A stretch of 46,458 bases of DNA from Candidatus Omnitrophota bacterium. Lineage in GTDB: Bacteria; Omnitrophota; Gorgyraeia; Aquiviventales; Aquiviventaceae. The notes under the pieces were generated by a model, which saw only the letters and a program-made list of their open reading frames with translations, was not told where the DNA came from and searched no databases. The stretch spans positions 1 through 46,458 of the forward strand of contig JACPAY010000016.1 of assembly GCA_016180575.1 (NCBI GenBank). Direction: 5' to 3'. A program made the position numbers and the translations under genes. This document shows positions 16,593 to 30,625 of this stretch, piece by piece (position 1 is the first letter of the stretch; each line of letters opens with the position of its first letter).

Positions 16593-16617
16593 AACGATCT
16601 TTCCCCTCTTCTTGACG

Positions 16618-18435
16618 ATGGCCGCGCTGCGCCTGGCCCTGGCTCAACTGAACGTGACGGTGGGGGACCTGGACGCCAACCGGCGCCTCATCGAGGAGGC
16701 CATCCACCGGGCGCAGGCCTGGCGGGCCGACCTCGTGGTGGTGCCGGAGCTGGCGGTCACGGGCTACCCCCCGGAAGACCTGCTGCTCAAGCCGCAGTTC
16801 ATCGAGGCCAACGCGCGGGTCCTCGAGCGGTTGAGCCCCGCCTCCCGGGGGCTGGTGGCGCTCGTCGGGTTCGTGGACCGCGACCGCCAGGGGCGGCTCC
16901 ATAACGCGGCGGCGGTGCTGGCCGGCGGCCGCCGGGTGGCGACATACCACAAGCAATGGCTGCCCAACTACGGCGTCTTCGACGAGAAGCGCTACTTCAC
17001 CGCCGGCGCCGGATCGCTCGTGCTCATGGTGGGCGGCGTGCGGGTAGGGGTGACCATCTGCGAGGATCTCTGGGAGGAGGCGCCGTGCCGCGCGCTGGGG
17101 GCCTTGGGCGCGCAGGTCGTCGTGAATCTGTCTTCCAGTCCCTACCACGCGGGCAAGCTGCGGGTGCGGGAGCGGCTCTTCGCCCGCCGGGCCCAAGAGA
17201 ACCGGCTGGCGATCGCCTACTGCAACCTCGTCGGGGGGCAGGATGAGCTCATCTTTGACGGCGCAAGCCTCATCCTGGATGCCCGCGGCCGTGAGCGCAT
17301 CCGGGGCGCCCAGTTCCGGGAGGACATGGTGCTGATGGATCTTGAGCCGCCGCAGATGGGTCCGGGGCGGCCGTCCCGTGCGGCCCGCGGAGCCGCGCGG
17401 GTGGTGCCGCTCTCGCGCGCCCTGACGGAGCGGCCGCGCCTGCGCCTGGCGCGGGCCAGGCGGCTGTTGCCGGTCGAGGAGGTCTACGAGGCGCTGACGC
17501 TGGGCGTGCGGGACTATGTCCGGAAGAACGGGTTTTCCACCGTCGTGCTGGGGCTCTCCGGCGGGGTGGATTCCGCCCTGACCGCGTGCATCGCCGCAGA
17601 CGCCTTGGGGCCGGCCGAGGTGCGGGCGGTCGTGATGCCCTCGCGCTTTTCCTCATCCGCCACCCAGGCGGATGCCCGGCGGGTGGCCAAGGCGCTCGGC
17701 ATCGAGGTGCTGGAGATCCCCATCGAGCCGATGTTCCGGGCGTACCTGGAGACGCTCCAGCCGCATTTCGGCACCCGCGCCCCGGACGTGGCCGAGCAGA
17801 ACCTCCAGGCCCGCGTCCGCGGGACGCTGCTGATGGCGCTCTCGAACAAGTTCGGGTGGCTGGTGCTGACGACCGGCAACAAGAGCGAGACGGCGACGGG
17901 CTACACGACGCTCTACGGCGACATGGCGGGGGGCTTTGCGGTCATCAAGGACGTGCCCAAGACGCTGGTCTACGAGCTGGCGCGGTTCCGCAACCGGCGG
18001 GCCCGCCCCGGCGATCGCGAGCCCGCCCCGGCCTTCGGCCGCGTCGGGCCGGGGAGGCGGGCCGGGGGCCCGGGCGTGCCCATCCCGGCCAGCGTCCTTG
18101 CGCGCGCCCCGTCGGCGGAGCTGGCCCCGAACCAGACCGACCAGGACACCCTGCCGCCGTACAGCCTGCTGGACCGCCTCCTCAAGGCATACGTCGAGGA
18201 GGATCAAAGCCTGCGCGCGATCCTGGCGCGCCTGCCTGCCGCGCTACCGTGGGGTACGACTGGCGCGGCGCAGGCAGGCAATCGGGTGGATCCGGCGGTG
18301 GCTCAGCGGGTCATCGCGATGGTGGACCGCTCCGAGTACAAGCGGCGCCAGGGGCCGCCGGGCATCAAGATCACGCCCAAGGCGTTCGGGAAGGACCGCC
18401 GGATGCCGATCACGAACCGGTTTCACCAGAGCTGA
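16618..18435 (+). CDS. nadE: Glutamine-dependent NAD+ synthetase with two in-frame inserts
   Basis: 605 residues. The N-terminal nitrilase-type glutaminase has the catalytic trio: Glu in VVPELAVTGYPPEDLL, Lys in YHKQWLPNYGVFDE and Cys in GVTICEDLWEE. The C-terminal synthetase has the ATP pyrophosphatase loop LGLSGGVDSAL, then LTTGNKSETATGYTTLYGDMAGGF and the end segment EYKRRQGPPG...KDRRMPITNRF. It is ~45 residues longer than usual. The surplus is two GC palindromic stretches, at residues ~462-486 and ~538-554, both in frame. ATG 16618 is preferred over TTG 16612. It makes NAD from deamido-NAD; a nicotinate phosphoribosyltransferase of the same pathway is at the right end of the window. It overlaps the next gene by 1 nt. 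Confidence 0.93.
   Translation: MAALRLALAQLNVTVGDLDANRRLIEEAIHRAQAWRADLVVVPELAVTGYPPEDLLLKPQFIEANARVLERLSPASRGLVALVGFVDRDRQGRLHNAAAVLAGGRRVATYHKQWLPNYGVFDEKRYFTAGAGSLVLMVGGVRVGVTICEDLWEEAPCRALGALGAQVVVNLSSSPYHAGKLRVRERLFARRAQENRLAIAYCNLVGGQDELIFDGASLILDARGRERIRGAQFREDMVLMDLEPPQMGPGRPSRAARGAARVVPLSRALTERPRLRLARARRLLPVEEVYEALTLGVRDYVRKNGFSTVVLGLSGGVDSALTACIAADALGPAEVRAVVMPSRFSSSATQADARRVAKALGIEVLEIPIEPMFRAYLETLQPHFGTRAPDVAEQNLQARVRGTLLMALSNKFGWLVLTTGNKSETATGYTTLYGDMAGGFAVIKDVPKTLVYELARFRNRRARPGDREPAPAFGRVGPGRRAGGPGVPIPASVLARAPSAELAPNQTDQDTLPPYSLLDRLLKAYVEEDQSLRAILARLPAALPWGTTGAAQAGNRVDPAVAQRVIAMVDRSEYKRRQGPPGIKITPKAFGKDRRMPITNRFHQS
18001..18062. repeat. In-frame GC palindrome within nadE, insert 1
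   Basis: GCCCGCCCCGGC occurs as a direct repeat at 18001-18012 and 18021-18032. The second copy pairs with GGCCGGGGAGGCGGGC (18047-18062) through a 3-nt bulge. It encodes an Arg/Pro/Gly-rich stretch between the conserved RFRNR and PIPASVL segments. Confidence 0.6.
18230..18279. repeat. In-frame GC palindrome within nadE, insert 2
   Basis: GCCTGCCTGCCGCGC (18230-18244) pairs with GCGCGGCGCAGGCAGGC (18263-18279) with a 2-nt bulge. It encodes LPAALPWGTTGAAQAGN in the helical region before the conserved DRSEYKRRQ motif. Confidence 0.65.
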
Positions 18436-20344: not shown

Positions 20345-21810
20345 CACGCGCCAGGCCGCGCGACAACCGCGGCTTCGTCCTCATCAGCAGCTACCTGATG
20401 CTGTTCCTGTTCTTCATCTACTCCAACGCCTTGACGATGCAGACCATGACCCAGCGCACGGTCGCCGACCGCGCGCGCGAGCAGCTCCAGGCGACGAACC
20501 TCGCGCAGGGGGCGATGGAGCAGCTCAGCGACGAGTTCTACCAGTTCCTGGCCGAGCAGGTGTACGCATTGCACTTCCAGAACAACGCGATCCAGGCGCT
20601 CCAGTGGCTCGACACCCTCGGGAACACCATCACCAGCGGAGGACTCGTCACCTCCACCGTCTCATGCGCGCCCTGCCTCAGCTACGAGTACGACGCCAAC
20701 GGCGCCCTGGCCATGAAGAGCAACTTCTCGGGTGGCCTGCTTGACGGGGTCGCCGCCAATCCGCGGCTGGCCAAGCTGCCAGCCGGCGACGGGAAGTCAT
20801 GGATTGCCTCCATCACGTCCACGGATCCCGCCAATGCCCTGGCGACGCGGCAGGTGACGCTGATCGGCGAGGCGACCGTCGGCGGGACAACCAAGCGCAT
20901 CCAGGCGGTCTACGACATCGTGCTGGGGATGTCGGACATCTTCCGCTACTCCTACTTCGTCAACAACTACGGGTGGTTCAGCCTCCAGGACGTCAACCAG
21001 CTCTACATCCGCGGTGAGGTCCGGGCCAACGGCGATATGGCGTTCAACGGCAGCACGTGGCGGATGTGGGTGGACGGCGACCTCTACGCGGCCAAGAACC
21101 CGGAGCTGGTCAACCCGGTGACCAAGCAGCCGGCGACCGGCGGCATCACCGGGGATCCCGCCGAGACAGCGAATCAGAAGGCCTACTGGCAGGCGTGCGA
21201 CACGGCGGCCTGCGACCGCGACGCGGCGCGTCCGACGCGGAAGCTCACGGTCCCAGGCCAGCCGGCCATCGGGGGGAGCGAGAAGGTCCTGCCCTACGGG
21301 AAGGGGTGGGACAGCGACAAGCCGAACCAGACCAAGTATGACGCCCAGACGACCCAGCCGATCCCGTACCTCGGCGACCTCAACTTCTACAAGAGCCTCG
21401 CCCTCCAAAAAAGCAGCAAGCTGACCTACTACGACAGCGCGGCGAAGAAGACCCAGACCATCAGCGCGGTCTATTCCAGCGACAAGCCGCTGGTGCTGGT
21501 GGGCACCTGGGCCAACCCGATCGTGCTGGACGGCCCCATCGTCGTCCCGGGCGACGTCATCATCAAGGGCTATGTCAAGGGCCGCGGCACGATTTACGCC
21601 GGCCGCAATGTGCACGTGGTGGGTGACCTGCAGTACGTGGAGCCCCCGCAGTGGGTCTCGCTCGAGCGCAACGAGAAGACCGGCCGCATCGCCCAGCGGG
21701 GCTATGGGCCGTACAGCAACTACGGGTACTCCCAGAGCAACCTCGGGACGGTCTGCAAGAGCGGGTCCTACTACAAACCTGGCGAGTCTGTCCCAGGGGG
21801 ATGCATGTGA
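20341..21810 (+). CDS. PilX-like pilus assembly protein
   Basis: 489 residues. The N-terminus DNRGFVLISSYLMLFLFFIYSNAL resembles a prepilin leader after Gly, but position +5 is Ser instead of Glu, as in PilX/GspK-type proteins. A helical region follows, then a beta-rich C-terminal half with RGEVRANGDMAFNGSTWRMWVDGDLYA and VPGDVIIKGYVKGRGTIYAGRNVHVVGDL, the repetitive strand pattern seen in large PilX-like proteins. It is probably a minor or tip pilin. It starts by ATGA overlap and ends 1 nt before the next start. Confidence 0.75.
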   Translation: MTRARPRDNRGFVLISSYLMLFLFFIYSNALTMQTMTQRTVADRAREQLQATNLAQGAMEQLSDEFYQFLAEQVYALHFQNNAIQALQWLDTLGNTITSGGLVTSTVSCAPCLSYEYDANGALAMKSNFSGGLLDGVAANPRLAKLPAGDGKSWIASITSTDPANALATRQVTLIGEATVGGTTKRIQAVYDIVLGMSDIFRYSYFVNNYGWFSLQDVNQLYIRGEVRANGDMAFNGSTWRMWVDGDLYAAKNPELVNPVTKQPATGGITGDPAETANQKAYWQACDTAACDRDAARPTRKLTVPGQPAIGGSEKVLPYGKGWDSDKPNQTKYDAQTTQPIPYLGDLNFYKSLALQKSSKLTYYDSAAKKTQTISAVYSSDKPLVLVGTWANPIVLDGPIVVPGDVIIKGYVKGRGTIYAGRNVHVVGDLQYVEPPQWVSLERNEKTGRIAQRGYGPYSNYGYSQSNLGTVCKSGSYYKPGESVPGGCM

Positions 21811-21811
21811 G

Positions 21812-23005
21812 ATGAACCGTCTGACCGCTGCGGGGGTGTTGCTCTTCGCGCTGTTCGCGGGGGCGTCGGTCGCTTCTGCGGCGGGCGGCATCGGTGACCC
21901 GCCACCGCCCTCATGCAACTGCACCGGGTGGGTGCCTACGGGCGGCTGTACCGGCCCCGGCGGCCAGCAGCTCCACACCCGCACGTGCACGCCGACCGGA
22001 TGCTCCTCGACGACGACCTACGGCTACACGGCCGCGTGTCCGAATCCGAATTGCACCGGCTGTTCCCAATGGACGGCGACGGGATGCAGCAACGGCTGGA
22101 TGAACTACAAGTGCGTGGCGCCTCCGAAGTGCTCCAGCCTGACGACGTTCGGGGCCCATAAGAGTTGCACGCAGTCCTGCACGGTAGGTCCCTGGACGTA
22201 CCATGGGTGCGGTGGCTGCGGGGAGGGTTGCCGGATCCGGACCCGCACCGTGACGCCCGCGTATGCGCCCTGCTGGTACAGCACCAGCCAGTACGAGTAC
22301 TACAACGATTCCGCGTGCCCGATCAACCAGAACAACATCTCGGGCAACTGGAAGCCGTACGGGTTCGCCAACCCGGGAGACCCGCAATACAGCTTCACCT
22401 ACCCGGATAACGAGAAGCGGGGGTTCCTGGGGCTGGCCGCCAAGGGCAACATCGTCGTCGGGGATTACACCTCGAAACAGTTTGAAGACAACGTGCTGCC
22501 CAAGCTCAAGCCCGGCGCCCAATCGGTCACGCAGCCGTACGTCGTGGACCCTTCGGATGCCACGCTGGGCTACCACACCGGCAACAAGGGGAAGATGTAC
22601 GATGAGAAGGGGCGCCCCCTCTTCGATGGGAACTACGTCCAGAAAGACGGCGGCGCCAAGCTGGACGGCAAGGACCGCAAGTTCTACGAGTCCAGCCTTT
22701 CGGATGCCGAGTTCAAGAAGCTCATCAATTCCAGCGACCCGCTCTTCGCCTCGTCCGGCAGGCCGAAGATTGACGCCGTGCTGTTCACCAACCACGCCGT
22801 GGCCGGGGCGGTGAACGCGGAGGCGCTCAGCGTCAACGGCGCCCTGATTAGCCGGGACGACGCCCTGATGTTCCGCAGCCGGCTGGACCTCAACCATGAC
22901 AGCCGGTTGCTGGACGCCGCCGCGGCGCAGCTGGCGCTGCCGGTCTCCATCAAGCGCCTCAAGCTGAAGTCCTGGAAGGAGTGCCCGGCCACGGGCTGCC
23001 AGTAA
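21812..23005 (+). CDS. Secreted Cys-rich protein of the pilus cassette
   Basis: 397 residues. A clear signal peptide ends at ASVASAAGG. Residues ~30-160 hold more than 20 cysteines in short Trp/Cys repeats such as CNCTGWVPTGGC, CSQWTATGCSNGW and CTVGPWTYHGCGGC, reminiscent of thrombospondin type 1 modules and likely disulfide-bonded. The C-terminal half has YGFANPGDPQYSFTYPDN and AVLFTNHAVAGAVNAEALSVNGALISRDD, a beta-strand pattern like the end of the upstream PilX-like protein. I do not recognise a named family. Position and composition suggest an adhesin or tip protein displayed by the pseudopilins. Its stop codon region begins the first 11-nt repeat array. Confidence 0.7.
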   Translation: MNRLTAAGVLLFALFAGASVASAAGGIGDPPPPSCNCTGWVPTGGCTGPGGQQLHTRTCTPTGCSSTTTYGYTAACPNPNCTGCSQWTATGCSNGWMNYKCVAPPKCSSLTTFGAHKSCTQSCTVGPWTYHGCGGCGEGCRIRTRTVTPAYAPCWYSTSQYEYYNDSACPINQNNISGNWKPYGFANPGDPQYSFTYPDNEKRGFLGLAAKGNIVVGDYTSKQFEDNVLPKLKPGAQSVTQPYVVDPSDATLGYHTGNKGKMYDEKGRPLFDGNYVQKDGGAKLDGKDRKFYESSLSDAEFKKLINSSDPLFASSGRPKIDAVLFTNHAVAGAVNAEALSVNGALISRDDALMFRSRLDLNHDSRLLDAAAAQLALPVSIKRLKLKSWKECPATGCQ

Positions 23006-23055
23006 CGCCGATTTAACCCGCCCGTCATCCTGACGTAACACCTCTTCGTTACCCT
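23000..23055 (+). promoter_or_regulatory. Four-unit 11-nt operator array and -10, array 1
   Basis: Heptamers CAGTAAC, ATTTAAC, CCGTCAT and ACGTAAC end at 23006, 23017, 23028 and 23039, exactly 11 nt apart. TACCCT (23050-23055) starts 11 nt after the last unit's end. Spacing and core resemble PhoB-type direct-repeat boxes, where the array replaces the -35. It precedes the lone winged-helix gene at 23068. Confidence 0.7.
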
Positions 23056-23067
23056 TCCTGCGCTTCC

Positions 23068-23385
23068 ATGGCGCAGCCGCTCATCCTTCGCTTCGGCGAC
23101 CTCGTCATCGACCTGGACGCCTACCGGGTGCTCCTGGCCGACCGCCCTCTGGCGCTCACCTACCGCGAGTACGCGCTCCTGGTCTACATCGCGGGGCGGG
23201 CCGGCCAGGTCGTGTCCAGGCGCCGGCTCCTGGAAGAGGGGCTGGGCCGGCACGACCCAGGCGGCTTGCGGATGGTGGATGAGCACGTCCGGCATCTGAA
23301 GGGCCTGCTGGAGCGGGAGGGCCGCGCGTTCATCGATGACCTCGGCGAGGCCGGCTACCGCTTTGCCCGCCCCGGCGATACATGA
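23068..23385 (+). CDS. Stand-alone OmpR/PhoB-type winged-helix DNA-binding protein
   Basis: 105 residues consisting only of a Trans_reg_C domain: FGDLVIDLDAYRVLLADRPLALTYREYALLVYIAGRAGQVVSRRRLL, MVDEHVRHLKGLLEREGRAFIDDLGEAGYRFA. There is no receiver domain upstream in any frame. The recognition-helix segment is RMVDEHVRHLKGLL. It is flanked by two nearly identical 11-nt arrays, one ahead of itself and one ahead of the porin operon, implying autoregulation and control of the porin. The predicted leader is very short (ATG 12 nt after the -10) with no Shine-Dalgarno. Confidence 0.85.
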   Translation: MAQPLILRFGDLVIDLDAYRVLLADRPLALTYREYALLVYIAGRAGQVVSRRRLLEEGLGRHDPGGLRMVDEHVRHLKGLLEREGRAFIDDLGEAGYRFARPGDT

Positions 23386-23400
23386 GAGGCGGGCCGGGGC

Positions 23401-23456
23401 CTGTAACAAAGAATTAACATGACCGTGATACGCGCGTAACGTGGCTCCCTTATCGT
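23401..23456 (+). promoter_or_regulatory. Four-unit 11-nt operator array and -10, array 2
   Basis: Heptamers CTGTAAC, AATTAAC, CCGTGAT and GCGTAAC end at 23407, 23418, 23429 and 23440, again 11 nt apart. TATCGT (23451-23456) lies 11 nt after the last unit's end. The order of variants (GTAAC, TTAAC, GTSAT, GTAAC) is the same as in array 1. It precedes the small secreted protein and porin. Confidence 0.75.
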
Positions 23457-23466
23457 AGCCTTCAAC

Positions 23467-23703
23467 ATGGCGCGGCTCCTCATGCTTGTGGTCCTGATGG
23501 TCATGGCCGTAATGGCCGGCCCCCTCGTATGGGCGGGAGAGGCTCCCGAGCCCTCCACGCAGCCGGCCGCGGCGCCCGCATCGCGGCTGGCCGCCAAGCC
23601 AGCCCACCACTGTTTCCCGTCATTTCCCAAGCAAACGTTCAAGCGGCGCACCAAGGCGCCGAACGTGGCGCAGCGTTCCACCAACAGGGAGGGGACACGA
23701 TGA
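23467..23703 (+). CDS. Small secreted protein of unknown function
   Basis: 78 residues. A strong signal peptide (MARLLMLVVLMVMAVMAG...VWAGEAPE) is followed by a short Pro/Ala and then basic tail with QTFKRRTKAPN and a single Cys. I recognise no family. Support for it being real: it sits 10 nt after a promoter -10 and overlaps the porin start by 4 nt (ATGA). It may be a leader peptide coupling translation of the porin or a small periplasmic protein. Confidence 0.5.
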   Translation: MARLLMLVVLMVMAVMAGPLVWAGEAPEPSTQPAAAPASRLAAKPAHHCFPSFPKQTFKRRTKAPNVAQRSTNREGTR

Positions 23704-25010
23704 GGGGGTTCGGTCAACTCGTGCGGGGGCTCAGCCTGGTCTTGCCCGCGGCTTCCGGCCTGCTGCTCCTCGGGGGTCCAGTGTGGGCCGATGAGGCGGA
23801 CACCGCGGCGCTCAAGGCGGAGATCGAGGTGTTGAAAAATCGGCTGGCCAGCCTGGAGAGCCAGGTGGGGCAGGCGGCGCTGGCGGGCGGCATCGAGACG
23901 GGCGAAAAGGCCGTCCCGGGTCTGCTGCAGCTGCCAAGCGGGCTCGCCGGGCTGCAGATGAGCGGGTACGCGGACATCGCGTACGGCTTCAACTTCAACG
24001 AGCCGGATCCGGCCACGACCGCGACGGTCGGCCGCGCCTTTGACAACGAGTCGCACGGCTTCACCCCGCACGCCTTTGAACTGGTCCTCGAGAAGCCGAT
24101 CACGGACGAGATGCCGCTCGGGTTCCGGACCGATCTCTTCTTCGGCGATGACGCGGAGATCATCCACTCCACGGGGCTTGGTGCTGCGACCGATAACTTC
24201 GACCTCCAGCAGGCCTATATCACCGCGCGGGCGCCCATCGAGGGGCTCGAGTTCAAGGTCGGGAAGTTCGTCACGCTGCTGGGCGCTGAGGTCATCGAGA
24301 GCCCGGCGAACTGGAACTACTCGCGTTCCCTCATGTTCCAGAACTCCATCCCGTACACGCATACGGGGGCGCTGGCCACGTACCCGCTCGGGGAGATCGG
24401 GTCGGCCACGTTCGGCGTGGTGAACGGCTGGGACATCGTGGACGACAACAACAAGGCCAAATCGCTCATCGGGAATCTCACCTTCACCCCGCTTGAGGAC
24501 CTCACCCTCTCGTTCAACGGCATCACGGGCGCTGAGCGCGCCGGCGATTCGCGCAACAAGCGGTCGGTCTTCGACACCGTGGTGACGTGGACCCCGCCGA
24601 TCGAGCACCTGACGCTGATGGCGAACTACGACTTCGGCCACGAGAGCGGCGTGACCCAAGGGACCGCGCCGGGTGCGGCGGGGCGAAAGGGGTTCGAGGC
24701 GGCCGAGTGGACCGGCCTTGCGCTCTACGCCAAGTACGACCTCTCAGATGCCTGGTCGCTTGCCGGGCGCTGGGAGTGGTTCGACGACAAGGACAACGCG
24801 CGCCTCGGCGCGACGAGCATCGGCGGCTCCGCGCTGGACGACCTCGACATCTACTCCTACACCCTGACCAGCCAGTGGAAGCTGCACGAGCACGTGCTGG
24901 CGCGCCTGGAGTACCGCCATGACAAGGCGGATGAGCGGGTGTTCCTGCGCGATGAGACGTTCAGCGACTACCTCGACACCGTCGCGGCGGAGCTCATCTA
25001 CCACTTCTGA
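23700..25010 (+). CDS. Outer-membrane beta-barrel porin (BBP2/OmpL-like)
   Basis: 436 residues. ATG 23700 is chosen for AGGGAGGGG at 23687-23695. The signal peptide ends at GPVWADEA. A short coiled coil follows (LKAEIEVLKNRLASLESQV, periplasmic), then a barrel with alternating strands: MSGYADIAYGFNFN, FRTDLFFGDDAEI, FKVGKFVTLLGAEVIESPANWNYSRSL and a terminal LIYHF ending in Phe. It resembles the putative beta-barrel porin-2 family. It lies just upstream of amt, so it may admit small nitrogen compounds; its promoter array suggests control by an OmpR/PhoB-type regulator. Specificity is inference. Confidence 0.85.
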   Translation: MRGFGQLVRGLSLVLPAASGLLLLGGPVWADEADTAALKAEIEVLKNRLASLESQVGQAALAGGIETGEKAVPGLLQLPSGLAGLQMSGYADIAYGFNFNEPDPATTATVGRAFDNESHGFTPHAFELVLEKPITDEMPLGFRTDLFFGDDAEIIHSTGLGAATDNFDLQQAYITARAPIEGLEFKVGKFVTLLGAEVIESPANWNYSRSLMFQNSIPYTHTGALATYPLGEIGSATFGVVNGWDIVDDNNKAKSLIGNLTFTPLEDLTLSFNGITGAERAGDSRNKRSVFDTVVTWTPPIEHLTLMANYDFGHESGVTQGTAPGAAGRKGFEAAEWTGLALYAKYDLSDAWSLAGRWEWFDDKDNARLGATSIGGSALDDLDIYSYTLTSQWKLHEHVLARLEYRHDKADERVFLRDETFSDYLDTVAAELIYHF

Positions 25011-25110: not shown

Positions 25111-26442
25111 ATGGATCCAAAGGTGATGTGCGATACGCTGTGGGTGCTGGTCACCGCGATGCTGGTGTTCTTCATGAACCTCGGCTTCGCGTGCGTGGAA
25201 ACCGGGTTCTGCCGGGTGAAGAACTCGACGAACATCCTCTCCAAGAACTTCATCGTGTTCGCCGCCTCCTCCATCGCCTTCTGGGTGCTGGGCTGGGGCC
25301 TGATGTTCGGCAACGGCACCGGCTTCATGGGCACGGAGGGGCTGCTCTTCCTCGGGGGGGCCGACAACAGCCCGGCGACCGGAGAGGCATACAAGGGGGT
25401 CTACGCGAGCATCAACTGGACCGGCGTGCCGCTCCTCGCCAAGTTCTTCTTCCAGCTCGTCTTCGCCGGCACGGCGGCCACGATCGTGTCCGGGTGCGTG
25501 GCGGAACGCGTCAAGTACTTCGCGTTCATCGCCTTCAGCTTCATCATCGTGGGGATCATCTACCCCATCCTGGGGCACTGGATCTGGGGCGGCGGGTGGC
25601 TGGCATCCAAGGGCTTCCTCGACTTCGCCGGCTCAACCCAGGTGCACTCCATCGGCGGGTGGGCGGGCCTCGCCGGGATCCTCGCGCTCGGTCCCCGGTA
25701 CGGGAAGTACAACAAGGACGGCTCGGTCAACCCGATCCCCGGCCACAACCTCTCGCTGGGGCTGATCGGCTGCTTCATCCTCTGGCTGGGCTGGTTCGGG
25801 TTCAACCCGGGCTCCACGATGGCCGCCGACCCTGACGCGATCGCGCGGATCTGCGTCACGACGAACACCGCGGCGGCCGCGGCGATGCTCTCGGCGACCG
25901 TGGTCTCGACCATGCTCCTGGGCAAGCCGGACCTCGGCATGACCATCAACGGGTGCCTCGCGGGCCTGGTGGCGATCACCGCGCCCTGCGCGTTCGTGAG
26001 CGTGATGAGCTCCGCCATCATCGGGCTCATCGCGGGCATCATCGTGGTGCTGGCGGTCGTCGCCTTCGACAAGGTGAAGATCGACGACCCGGTCGGCGCG
26101 CTGGCCGTGCACCTGTGCAACGGGGTGTTCGGCACGCTGTGCGTTGGGCTCTTCGCCGAGCCGCAGTGGACGCCGGGGCAGGCGGCGGGCCTGTTCTTCG
26201 GCGGCGGGCTGAAGCAGCTGAGCATCCAGTTCACGGGGATCCTCGCGGTCGCGGCGTTCGCATTCGGCATCTCCTACCTGGCCTGGCAGCTCATCAAGGC
26301 GACGATGGGCATCCGGGTCAGCATCCAGGAGGAGATCGAAGGGCTCGACATCGGCGAGCATGGCCAGACGACATATCCGGAATTCGTCACGCGCAAGCCG
26401 GCGTACTCCTACGTGAGCATCGCCGAGCGGGTCGCGGAGTGA
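25111..26442 (+). CDS. amtB: Ammonium transporter (Amt/MEP/Rh)
   Basis: 443 residues with about eleven hydrophobic segments. The channel's twin histidines are visible in DFAGSTQVHSIGGWAGL and VGALAVHLCNGVFGTL. The conserved KNSTNILSKNF and GWFGFNPGS stretches are present. It conducts ammonium/ammonia across the inner membrane. A strong AAAGGAGGAGG (25096-25106) precedes the ATG. The glnK gene follows after 14 nt, the usual pairing, since GlnK blocks the channel when nitrogen is plentiful. Confidence 0.95.
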   Translation: MDPKVMCDTLWVLVTAMLVFFMNLGFACVETGFCRVKNSTNILSKNFIVFAASSIAFWVLGWGLMFGNGTGFMGTEGLLFLGGADNSPATGEAYKGVYASINWTGVPLLAKFFFQLVFAGTAATIVSGCVAERVKYFAFIAFSFIIVGIIYPILGHWIWGGGWLASKGFLDFAGSTQVHSIGGWAGLAGILALGPRYGKYNKDGSVNPIPGHNLSLGLIGCFILWLGWFGFNPGSTMAADPDAIARICVTTNTAAAAAMLSATVVSTMLLGKPDLGMTINGCLAGLVAITAPCAFVSVMSSAIIGLIAGIIVVLAVVAFDKVKIDDPVGALAVHLCNGVFGTLCVGLFAEPQWTPGQAAGLFFGGGLKQLSIQFTGILAVAAFAFGISYLAWQLIKATMGIRVSIQEEIEGLDIGEHGQTTYPEFVTRKPAYSYVSIAERVAE

Positions 26443-26456
26443 GGGGGGGCTGCAGC

Positions 26457-26795
26457 ATGAAGAAGATCGAAGCGATCGTTCGGCCAGAGAAGGTGGACGA
26501 CGTCCGCAAATCGCTGGAGAAGGCCGGCTACCCGGGGATGACCCTCAGCGAAGTGGAGGGGCATGGCAAGCAAAAGGGGGTCACCCGCCAGTGGCGGGGC
26601 GAGTCCTACAAAGTGGACCTCCTGCCGAAGGCGAAGATCGAGGTGATCGTCTCGGACAAGGACGCCGGCCGCATCACCAGCGCCATCGCCTCGGCGGCCA
26701 AGACCGGCTCGGTGGGGGACGGGAAAATCTTCATCTCCCAGGTCGAGGACGCCGTGCGCATCCGCACGGGCGACCGGGGGGAGGAGGCCCTCTAG
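26457..26795 (+). CDS. glnK: PII signalling protein (GlnK/GlnB)
   Basis: 112 residues. It starts MKKIEAIVRPEKVDDVRKSL. The T-loop KQKGVTRQWRGESYKVDLLPKAKIEV keeps Tyr51, the uridylylation site, while position 46 is Trp rather than Tyr. The C-terminal signature TGSVGDGKIFIS is present. It senses ATP/ADP and 2-oxoglutarate and regulates the adjacent ammonium channel and glutamine synthetase activity. Confidence 0.95.
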   Translation: MKKIEAIVRPEKVDDVRKSLEKAGYPGMTLSEVEGHGKQKGVTRQWRGESYKVDLLPKAKIEVIVSDKDAGRITSAIASAAKTGSVGDGKIFISQVEDAVRIRTGDRGEEAL

Positions 26796-26905: not shown

Positions 26906-28447
26906 ATGCCCAGGGTCAGTGTCGCTGCACGCCGCAACAGGGGGCGTGTCGCACCGAGTCGCACCGCCGCGCGCGCGGGAGCCGGGACGAACAGCCGGCA
27001 CGTCGTCCCCACGTTCACCGAGGATGCGGTCAAGAAGGTCTGGGCGCTCATCAAGCAGCAGAAGATCACGGTCGTGGATCTGAAGTTCAACGACCTGCCG
27101 GGGCTCTGGCAGCACTTCTCCATCCCGGTCGAGGAGGTCGCCCAGAGCGCCAAGGAAGGAATCTGGGTGGACGGGATCGGGTTCGACGGCTCCTCCATCC
27201 GCGGGTTCCAGAAGATCCAGGAGTCGGACATGAACCTCTACCCCGACCCCTCGACGGCGGTGCTCGACCCCGTCTGCGAGACCCCCACCCTGAGCCTCGT
27301 CTGCGACATCTACGACCCGCTCTCCAAACAGGCCTACAGCCGCGACCCCCGCTACATCGCCCGCAAGGCCGAGGCCTACCTGAAGAAGACCGGCATCGCC
27401 GACGTCAGCTACTGGGGGCCGGAGCCGGAGTTCTTCATCTTCGATGACATCCGCTTCGACTCGACGGAGAACGCCAGCTACTATTTCGTCGATTCGGTCG
27501 AGGGGGATTGGAACACCGGCCGGGACGAGAAGCCGAACCTCGGCTACAAGCCGCGGTACAAGGAAGGCTACTTCCCGGTGCCGCCGCACGACATCTTTCA
27601 GGAGATCCGCAGCGAGATCATGCTCAAGGCCCGCGCGGCGGGCGTGCCGGTCGAGAAGCACCACCACGAGGTCGCCACCGCCGGCCAGGCTGAGATCGAC
27701 ATGCGCTACTCGACCCTGACGAAGATGGCGGACCACCTCATGATGCTCAAGTACGTGGTGAAGAACGTCGCCCGCAAGCACAACAAGGTCGCGACGTACA
27801 TGCCCAAGCCCCTCTTCGGCGACAACGGCTCCGGGATGCACACCCACCAGAGCCTCGCGAAGAGCGGGAGCAACCTGTTCTTCGACAAGGGCGGCTACGC
27901 GAAGATCAGCCAGATGTGCAAGTGGTACATCGGCGGGCTGCTCAAGCACGCCCCGGCGATCCTGGCCTTCGCGGCGCCGACGACGAACTCCTACAAGCGC
28001 CTCGTGCCGGGCTACGAGGCGCCGGTGAACCTGGCCTACTCGGCGCGCAACCGCTCGGCCATCTGCCGCATCCCGGTCTATGTGGACTACCCGAAGAGCA
28101 AGCGGGTGGAGTTCCGCGTGCCCGACCCCTCCTGCAACCCGTACACGATGTTCGCCGCCTGCCTGATGGCGGGGCTCGACGGCATCCAGAATCGGATCGA
28201 CCCGGGCCAGCCGGTGGACGAGAACATCTACGAGCTGCCGCCGGAGAAGGCAGCCAGGATCAAGACGGTGCCCGGCTCATTGGACGAGGCGCTCGACGCC
28301 CTGGAGCAGGACCACGCGTTCCTCCTGAAGGGCGACGTCTTCACAAAGGACGTCATCGACATCTGGATCGAGTACAAGCGGCAGGAGATCGACAAGGTCC
28401 GCCTGCGCCCGCACCCGTACGAGTTCTACCTGTACTTCGACGCCTGA
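26906..28447 (+). CDS. glnA: Glutamine synthetase type I, adenylylatable form
   Basis: 513 residues. GAGGAGG (26891-26897) fixes the ATG at 26906. Catalytic regions: [59 protein letters not shown] and [26 protein letters not shown] matches the adenylylation-site segment of beta-type enzymes, with its Tyr. An Arg-rich ~30-residue N-terminal extension ([20 protein letters not shown]...) precedes the normal start. It condenses glutamate and ammonia and follows amt-glnK, the expected nitrogen-assimilation order. Confidence 0.95.
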
Positions 28448-28465: not shown

Positions 28466-28527
28466 GGTCACAAGGTCACAGCGTCACCAGGTCACATGTG
28501 ACGTTGTGACCTTGTGACTTTGTGACC
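28466..28527. repeat. Family F palindrome built of GTCAC/GTGAC units
   Basis: GGTCAC at 28466 mirrors GTGACC ending at 28527, with a perfect GTCACATGTGAC centre. AAGGTCAC and GTGACCTT units are repeated on both sides. It fills the gap between glnA and the amidotransferase, and its right end contains the GTG at 28522. Confidence 0.85.
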
Positions 28528-28530
28528 CAC

Positions 28531-29268
28531 GTGCCCCTCATTCTCGTTGTGCAACATGTGCCGCACGAGCGGCTGGGGACGCTTGAGGAGCCCCTCCGGC
28601 GCGCCGGGTGCGCCGTGCTGCCGTTCGCCGTCGCTGAGCGGGGGGCGACGCAGCCTCCGCTTGAAGGCATCGCGGGCGTCATCTCCATGGGCGGGCCGCA
28701 GAGCGCCTCCGAACAAGCGGCGTACCCCTGGATGGTGAAAGAAACGGCGCTGCTCGGCGAGGCGGTCAGGCGCGGGCTGCCGGTGCTCGGCATCTGCCTT
28801 GGCGCGCAGCTGCTGGCCGCCGTGCTGGGAGCGAAGGTGACCAAGAACCCGCAGAAAGAAATCGGCTGGTACCCGCTCATGCGCGAGCCCGGGGCTGACG
28901 GCGACCCATTCTTCGCGCCGTTCGGGCAGACCGAGACGGTCTTCCAGTGGCACGGGGACACCTTCGGGCTGCCAAAGGGCGCCGTCCGCCTGGCGAGTGC
29001 TCCCCTGTGCCGCGAGCAGGCCTTCCGCTACGGGGAGACCGCGTGGGGGCTGCAGTTTCACCTGGAGGTGACGGAGTCGATGATCCGGGCCTGGATGCGG
29101 CAGCCGGGAAACCGCGCCGAGCTGGCCGCGCTGAAGCACGTCATCGACCCGATGGCGATTCGGCGCCAGAGCCCCCAGCACCTCCCGCGGCTGCGGGAGC
29201 TTGCCGAGCATGTCGCCACGACGTTTGCGCAGTGCGTGAAAGGAGCGGTCAATGCCCGTCGCGTCTAA
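28531..29268 (+). CDS. Class I glutamine amidotransferase
   Basis: 245 residues from GTG 28531; GTG 28522, inside the family F repeat, would add three. The glutaminase triad is visible: nucleophile Cys in LGICLGAQLLA, then His and Glu in LQFHLEVTE. It resembles stand-alone GMP-synthase-like amidotransferases, a group with varied roles. Lying between two glutamine synthetase genes and overlapping the second by 17 nt, it may hydrolyse gamma-glutamyl compounds or glutamine. Its acceptor substrate is not evident. Confidence 0.85.
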   Translation: MPLILVVQHVPHERLGTLEEPLRRAGCAVLPFAVAERGATQPPLEGIAGVISMGGPQSASEQAAYPWMVKETALLGEAVRRGLPVLGICLGAQLLAAVLGAKVTKNPQKEIGWYPLMREPGADGDPFFAPFGQTETVFQWHGDTFGLPKGAVRLASAPLCREQAFRYGETAWGLQFHLEVTESMIRAWMRQPGNRAELAALKHVIDPMAIRRQSPQHLPRLRELAEHVATTFAQCVKGAVNARRV

Positions 29269-30625
29269 GCCCAAGGCGGCCACGGCCGCGCGCCGGCCCC
29301 TGCGGAAAGACAAGCAGTACGTCCTGCGCCTGGCCAAGGAGCACGACGTCCGGTTCATCCGCCTGTGGTTCACCGACATCCTGGGCTTCCTCAAGAGCTT
29401 CGCCATCACGATCGACGAGCTGGAGAAGGCGCTCGAGGAGGGGATGGGGTTCGACGGCTCCGCCATCGAGGGGTTCGCCCGCATCGATGAGTCGGACATG
29501 CTGGCCGTCCCGGACCCGAACACCTTCTGCCTCCTGCCCTGGCGGCCGAAGGAAAACGCGGTCGCGCGGATGTTCTGCGACGTGACCTACCCCGGCGGCA
29601 AGCTCTTCGAGGGCGACCCCCGCGCCGTGCTCAAGCGCAACCTCGCCCAAGCGAGCAAGCTGGGCTACACGTTCTACGTGGGGCCGGAGCTTGAGTTCTT
29701 CGTCTTCAAGAGCGCTGACGCCCCGGCGCCCATCGACGCGGGCGGCTACTTCGACCTGACGCCGCTCGACGCGGCTTCGGACCTGCGCCGGGACATCATC
29801 CTCTCCATGGAGGAGATGGGGATCGGCATCGAGTACTCGCACCACGAGGCGGCGCCCTCGCAGCATGAGATCGACTTCCGCTACACCGACGCGCTCACGA
29901 TGGCCGACAACGTCATGACCTACCGGCTCGTCGTGAAGGAGATCGCCTTCAAGCACGGCGTCTACGCCAGCTTCATGCCGAAGCCGCTCGCCGACCACAA
30001 CGGCTCCGGGATGCACGTGAACATGTCGCTCTTCCGGGGCGAGCGCAACGCGTTCTTCGACGCGAGGGACCGGCTCCACCTCTCCGGGACCGCAAAACGG
30101 TTCATGGCGGGGATCCTCCGGCACGCGCCGGAGCTGACGCTGGTGCTGAACCAGTGGGTCAACTCGTACAAGCGCCTCGTGCCGGGCTACGAGGCACCCG
30201 TGTACGTCACGTGGGCGCAGCGCAACCGCTCGGACCTGGTGCGCATCCCGATGTACAAGCCGGGGAAGGAGGCCTCGACGCGGATCGAGCTGCGCTCGCC
30301 GGACCCGGCCTGCAGCCCGTACCTCGCGTTCAGCGCGATCCTGGCGGCGGGCCTGGAGGGGATCGAGAAAAAGTTCGAGTTGCCGCCCCCGACCGAGGAG
30401 AACGCGGCGGAGCTGAGCGCGGCTGAGCGGGCGCGGCGGGGCATCGGGACGCTGCCGGGGACCCTGGGGGAGGCGATCGCGCTGGCGGAGAAAAGCCGGC
30501 TGCTGCGCCGCGCGCTCGGTGACCACGTCTTCAACTCGTTCCTGCAGAACAAGCGCATCGAGCTCGACCAGTTCCGCCGGACCGTCACCGACTACGAGCT
30601 CAAGACCTACCTTCCGCTGCTCTGA
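29252..30625 (+). CDS. Second glutamine synthetase family protein
   Basis: 457 residues. The GS fold is complete: MGFDGSAIEGFARIDESDM, YVGPELEFFVF, YSHHEAAPSQHEIDFRY, MPKPLADHNGSGMHVNMSL and SPYLAFSAILAAGLEG. The region of the adenylylation Tyr reads ENAAELSAAERARRG, with no Tyr, so unlike the first copy it should not be adenylylated. It looks closer to alpha-type/short GSI enzymes. It could be a second glutamine synthetase or a gamma-glutamyl-amine synthetase partnered with the overlapping amidotransferase. Its 3' end overlaps convergent lpxB by 26 nt. The N-terminus has a short Lys/Arg-rich extension. Confidence 0.92.
   Translation: MPVASKPKAATAARRPLRKDKQYVLRLAKEHDVRFIRLWFTDILGFLKSFAITIDELEKALEEGMGFDGSAIEGFARIDESDMLAVPDPNTFCLLPWRPKENAVARMFCDVTYPGGKLFEGDPRAVLKRNLAQASKLGYTFYVGPELEFFVFKSADAPAPIDAGGYFDLTPLDAASDLRRDIILSMEEMGIGIEYSHHEAAPSQHEIDFRYTDALTMADNVMTYRLVVKEIAFKHGVYASFMPKPLADHNGSGMHVNMSLFRGERNAFFDARDRLHLSGTAKRFMAGILRHAPELTLVLNQWVNSYKRLVPGYEAPVYVTWAQRNRSDLVRIPMYKPGKEASTRIELRSPDPACSPYLAFSAILAAGLEGIEKKFELPPPTEENAAELSAAERARRGIGTLPGTLGEAIALAEKSRLLRRALGDHVFNSFLQNKRIELDQFRRTVTDYELKTYLPLL

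Follow-up and report, generated by a model that had tools for sequence, protein, structure and literature searches.

A predicted GlnR-type nitrogen regulon in Omnitrophota, with twin 11-nt-period operator arrays and a receiver-less paralogue

Actinobacterial GlnR, known from Streptomyces, Mycobacterium, Amycolatopsis and Saccharopolyspora, is an OmpR-family regulator with a pseudo-receiver that is listed as an orphan, and its boxes are 11-nt direct repeats, usually two continuous ones. In S. coelicolor the GlnR box reads gTnAc-n6-GaAAc twice, i.e. in the order a-b-a-b, and in M. smegmatis t/gTAAC-n6-Gc/aAAC (PMC10704036), while the receiver aspartate of GlnR matters for dimer formation (PMC12632262). 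PhoB/PhoP and the PHO box represent a similar arrangement, with 11-nt tandem repeats for OmpR/PhoB winged helices and the array over the -35 position, and with phosphate targets, a phosphorylatable receiver and an adjacent kinase. Stand-alone OmpR-type winged helices are likewise found among receiver-less Trans_reg_C proteins. Our literature search, which was not exhaustive, returned no GlnR outside Actinobacteria and no nitrogen regulator in Omnitrophota.

Based on detailed analyses of a 46,458-nt stretch of DNA from a Candidatus Omnitrophota bacterium (the window) and comparisons to related genomes, we consider it very likely, judging from sequence, that a GlnR-like regulator of 228 aa binds two four-core arrays as GlnR boxes and thereby governs a nitrogen regulon outside Actinobacteria. 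The recognition helix and wing are near-identical to those of actinobacterial GlnR, the arrays have the same period and similar cores as the published boxes (a sequence match only; PMC10704036, PMC5826061), and ammonium-transport and glutamine-synthetase targets are in common. In contrast to the actinobacterial systems, the host belongs to a porin-bearing, uncultured phylum, core 2 reads TTAAC and not GaAAC, the regulator adjoins nadE, the predicted regulon includes an outer-membrane porin, and a receiver-less paralogue lies between twin arrays. The phosphate targets and phosphorylatable receiver of PhoB/PhoP were not seen here, nor was an adjacent kinase among the neighbours of the regulator that we examined, i.e. 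FTR1, nadE, pilin-like ORFs and the gene of the receiver-less winged-helix protein (wHTH), which are part of the window ORFs.

The locus is a nitrogen-assimilation and ammonium-uptake cluster (Table 1), in the order nadE, regulator, array 1, wHTH, array 2, porin, amtB, glnK, glnA, amidotransferase and second glnA homologue; parts of this order vary among genomes. The nadE stop overlaps the regulator start by TGATG in the window, and nadE directly precedes the regulator gene in almost every mapped relative of the family and also in a further family, f27.

Table 1. Window coordinates of the arrays and of the genes around them
Feature	Position	Strand	Remarks
nadE, glutamine-dependent NAD synthetase	16612..18435	+	
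GlnR-like atypical response regulator, 228 aa	18435..19121	+	candidate binder of both arrays
Array 1	23002..23039	+	GTAAC-n6-TTAAC-n6-GTCAT-n6-GTAAC (cores 23002-23006, 23013-23017, 23024-23028, 23035-23039); 5' of receiver-less wHTH gene; kept in 18 genomes
Putative -10 of array 1, TACCCT	23050..23055	+	TAnnnT, same offset in 14/18 genomes
Receiver-less winged-helix gene, 105 aa	23068..23385	+	PF00486 only; best PDB matches GlnR
Array 2	23403..23440	+	GTAAC-n6-TTAAC-n6-GTGAT-n6-GTAAC (cores 23403-23407, 23414-23418, 23425-23429, 23436-23440); 5' of porin-amtB-glnK-glnA operon
Putative -10 of array 2, TATCGT	23451..23456	+	
Small ORF, 78 aa, signal-peptide-like	23467..23703	+	first ORF past array 2, start 27 nt after
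BBP2-type outer-membrane porin	23700..25010	+	PF07642, E 1.6e-79
amtB ammonium transporter	25111..26442	+	PF00909, TIGR00836
glnK/glnB P-II protein	26457..26795	+	PF00543
glnA, type I glutamine synthetase	26990..28447 (start approximate)	+	TIGR00653 above cut-off
Glutamine amidotransferase-like protein	28522..29268	+	
Second glutamine synthetase homologue	29252..30625	+	TIGR00653 above cut-off

Read directly from the window, the cores follow an equal order in both arrays and each -10-like hexamer begins 11 nt past its array, in agreement with an earlier sequence-only reading, whose eight core end coordinates proved exact. The genome-wide scan for 11-nt-spaced cores that it had proposed was run: at up to three mismatches, the joint four-core pattern matched only arrays 1 and 2 in the genome (1.31 Mb, 85% complete; all genome-wide statements here derive from such pattern searches), and the backwards control of this pattern gave no match there at the same tolerance. 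A looser core pattern added a single site in the own genome (C21:109944, two mismatches), which is of poor quality, and we therefore claim no third target in it. In a PWM scan the window arrays score 48 bits, while 0.56 Mb of reversed sequence held no match of at least 8 bits. Stronger proof against chance than these controls comes from conservation across 18 genomes.

Pattern search detected arrays in 21 of 40 relatives; high-identity matches to the receiver-less wHTH were obtained from 18 of these 40. All 18 wHTH-bearing Omnitrophota genomes have one array 5' and one array 3' of the gene; relatives that keep the genes and have lost the 11-nt cores, which the sequence-only reading would have taken as evidence against itself, were not encountered among them. 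Alignment of 36 arrays yields the consensus GTnAC-n3-GAT-TTAAC-n6-GTnAT-n6-GTAAC, and the spacers of array 1 differ consistently from those of array 2 across genera. Counting one 1-base shift, the TAnnnT hexamer at array 1 recurs in 15 of the 18 genomes, and an in-frame start lies 24-29 nt past this array in 12 of them (29 nt in the window), hence the wHTH mRNA is probably near-leaderless. G004, a genome of the same family as the window in which the wHTH was not found, has an array between the regulator and amtB. In the array-less family genomes (G003, G008, G018, G020, G023 and G024) amtB was likewise not detectable; in G014 amtB is located 627 nt from the contig start, so that its upstream region is probably missing, and in G007 a good array (L100) sits right at the contig end. 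Matches with three mismatches at L094, L112 and L126 were treated as chance, and no nitrogen gene was found adjoining them.

The regulator displays the receiver and Trans_reg_C architecture in both Pfam and the fold model (PF00486, 97 bits; PF00072, 25.6 bits, just under the cut-off of 30.2). Its best PDB matches, by single sequence and by profile, are GlnR of M. tuberculosis (8hih) and of S. erythraea (8hig and 8hml), with a profile E of 1.4e-49 for the best GlnR structure versus 1.2e-38 for the next protein, RegX3. The top Foldseek match of the predicted fold is again 8hih (41% identity), in a model with good domain confidence and an uncertain domain arrangement (pTM 0.55). The recognition helix GGTRTVDVH(I/V)RRLR and the TVRN wing agree with GlnR, and the DNA-binding domains are 53-67% identical to M. 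tuberculosis GlnR in family f1, versus 41-51% to RegX3/MtrA, and 63-70% identical to either GlnR in f27. The phosphorylation lysine of the receiver is gone from the regulators of all four families examined (f1, f8, f20 and f27), the K103 position being L or W in f1, R in f8 and another residue in f20 and f27, while D53 is retained in 21 of 21 f1 regulators and is N in f8. In a 56-row tree, built with few outgroups and with actinobacterial GlnR sequences from PDB alignments, two of the latter nest inside the Omnitrophota regulator clade (support 100/100). Of 17 further Omnitrophota regulators, 16 fall outside this clade together with RegX3 and MtrA, and the remaining one, L203 (G158), is placed inside it on a long branch. 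An NCBIfam search returned no GlnR model among its matches. Taken as a sequence-based assignment, the regulator is likely the GlnR of the locus.

Across 285 genomes of the phylum, with the GlnR-like regulator called at at least 200 bits and arrays at two mismatches, the related array pattern was found at 22 sites in 13 genomes, and the control pattern had no match in the genomes listed. Arrays occur in 12 of 21 genomes with the GlnR-like regulator versus 1 of 264 without it (Fisher p 8e-15, which overstates independence as the genomes are related). The arrays of f27 adjoin the regulator or precede porin-amtB genes, and are again present 5' of glnA; f20 has similar, weaker arrays near the regulator and before glnA. 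The wHTH is absent from both families, and since their arrays adjoin the regulator and precede amtB and glnA, the arrays track the GlnR-like regulator rather than the 105-aa protein. In f8, three genomes were seen by eye to carry only three-core, diverged arrays with a -10, located between the regulator and either amtB or glnK. Arrays unlinked to the locus were detected 5' of GAF-ANTAR, P-II and nitrite-reductase genes in an unbiased scan (L092 and L106), before a GAF-ANTAR gene (L122), before P-II and molybdopterin genes (L098) and before NirB/NirD (L109). By position, the genes behind arrays thus comprise amtB, glnK, glnA, NirA-like and NirB/NirD.

We note that in L092 (5301-8316), L106 (5925-10208) and L122 (3502-4314) the array lies 5' of an antiterminator-like GAF-ANTAR gene, and in L092 and L106 genes for P-II and for a nitrite reductase of NirA type come next. 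It is possible that this set represents a nitrite-assimilation operon with ANTAR control.

The protein encoded between the twin arrays lacks a receiver, as stated in the sequence-only reading, and its relation to GlnR emerged in both sequence and fold searches. Compared to other receiver-less Trans_reg_C proteins it is closest to GlnR, was seen in a single order of those sampled (in f1 and, among the nearest genomes sampled, in f2) and is flanked by GlnR boxes, and its sequences form one clade on a long branch. By sequence comparison it is a truncated, diverged paralogue of the GlnR DNA-binding domain. V195, R199, T214 and R216, which from PhoB-DNA structures we take to be the contact positions of the recognition helix and wing, are invariant in all 35 GlnR-like regulators; in the wHTH, V195 is replaced by E (18/18), R199 mostly by H (15/18), T214 by mixed residues and R216 mostly by G. 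With these positions changed the wHTH is unlikely to share the specificity of the regulator and probably does not recognise the arrays in the manner of that protein. The GRHD loop and E72 show no variation among the wHTH sequences, and the retained loop indicates a functional gene under selection. Our best guess, and the most likely role, is that of a GlnR-controlled feedback modulator rather than a reader of the arrays.

The core sequence alone cannot name the binder, because PHO boxes share the 11-nt design (PMC4415409) and an array of this kind lies before pstS in G205. The GTCAT and GTAAC cores also resemble PHO boxes, and the arrays could accordingly be bound by a PhoB-type regulator, the operon then answering to phosphate. 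However, the identified array targets are nitrogen genes, and the regulator reaches 130 bits in TIGR02154, the PhoB equivalog model, versus a cut-off of 296, and is devoid of the receiver lysine. The own assembly encodes two PF00486 proteins only and no other OmpR-type regulator was found in it, although one could be missing as the genome is 85% complete. We therefore reject the phosphate reading as very improbable. The G205 array itself (L202, G205:C26, 5513-5550, minus strand) is located directly 5' of pstS/pstC, and its genome is devoid of the GlnR-like regulator; it is probably a PHO box and shows the likeness of the two operators.

Alternatively, the 105-aa wHTH itself may regulate both arrays, combining autoregulation with control of the porin operon and governed by its abundance, which the sequence-only reading had offered next to control by the response regulator at 18435. 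Such a role would fit the location of the gene between the arrays wherever it occurs and the intact winged helix of the predicted fold (pLDDT 92), but it is unlikely given the loss of residues that the regulators hold invariant and the arrays that exist without a wHTH in f27, f20 and G004. Hence, of the two proposed binders the regulator at 18435 is favoured, being GlnR-like and tracked by the arrays, and direct reading by the 105-residue protein is disfavoured. The assignment of the twin arrays as OmpR/PhoB-type 11-nt operators is upheld, whereas the GlnR-like identity of the regulator, the GlnR boxes and the nitrogen operon had escaped that reading altogether. Joint binding, in which the wHTH would occupy part of an array alongside the 228-aa regulator, as its partner or in competition with it, deserves somewhat more credit and yet is rather doubtful: gene and arrays are strictly co-located within one order, their spacers are kept different across genera and the protein is under selection, but the contact residues appear lost and the same array design is found elsewhere without the wHTH.

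We propose that the GlnR-like regulator operates as follows. Forming homodimers independently of phosphorylation, it would sit head-to-tail on the 11-bp repeats. A box would hold two monomers and an array up to four. Each array would lie over the -35 position, one fixed step 5' of the TAnnnT -10: its last core would be just 5' of this hexamer and the -35 would fall within the stretch from core 3 to core 4, which is class II geometry, and binding would recruit RNA polymerase by class II activation. In this manner array 2 would switch on the porin-amtB-glnK-glnA operon when nitrogen is limiting; both the activating sign and the nitrogen-limitation signal are deduced from the targets being nitrogen genes. 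Array 1 would switch on the wHTH gene, presumably a duplicated and diverged copy of the DNA-binding domain of the regulator, from a near-leaderless mRNA. That this dedicated paralogue, with its own GlnR box, tunes GlnR by partnering or competing in this Omnitrophota order is a tentative suggestion. In the literature searched, we encountered no GlnR system with a receiver-less feedback module of this type.

The model predicts how nitrogen uptake is controlled in a part of a phylum that has not been isolated. It also indicates that a GlnR-type system exists beyond the Actinobacteria and has one new component, the receiver-less paralogue, whose effect on GlnR is testable in vitro. With actinobacterial GlnR nested in the Omnitrophota clade, albeit in a small tree, it becomes testable whether GlnR is of ancient origin or was transferred. 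Nitrogen regulons of metagenome-assembled genomes can be predicted by means of the conserved core pattern.

Further observations concern individual genes of the locus. A 477-aa ORF without Pfam match (window 21572-23005) ends in a stop codon that shares bases with core 1 of array 1, and it has homologues in L090 and L110, again 5' of array 1. The 78-aa ORF past array 2 has no family match and no counterpart in related loci. In the nearest relative (L090, same genus) the regulator is 94% identical to that of the window, while the amtB products (window 25111-26442; L090 3198-4514) share only 43% identity; from this divergence, amtB seems to have been exchanged while the locus persisted.
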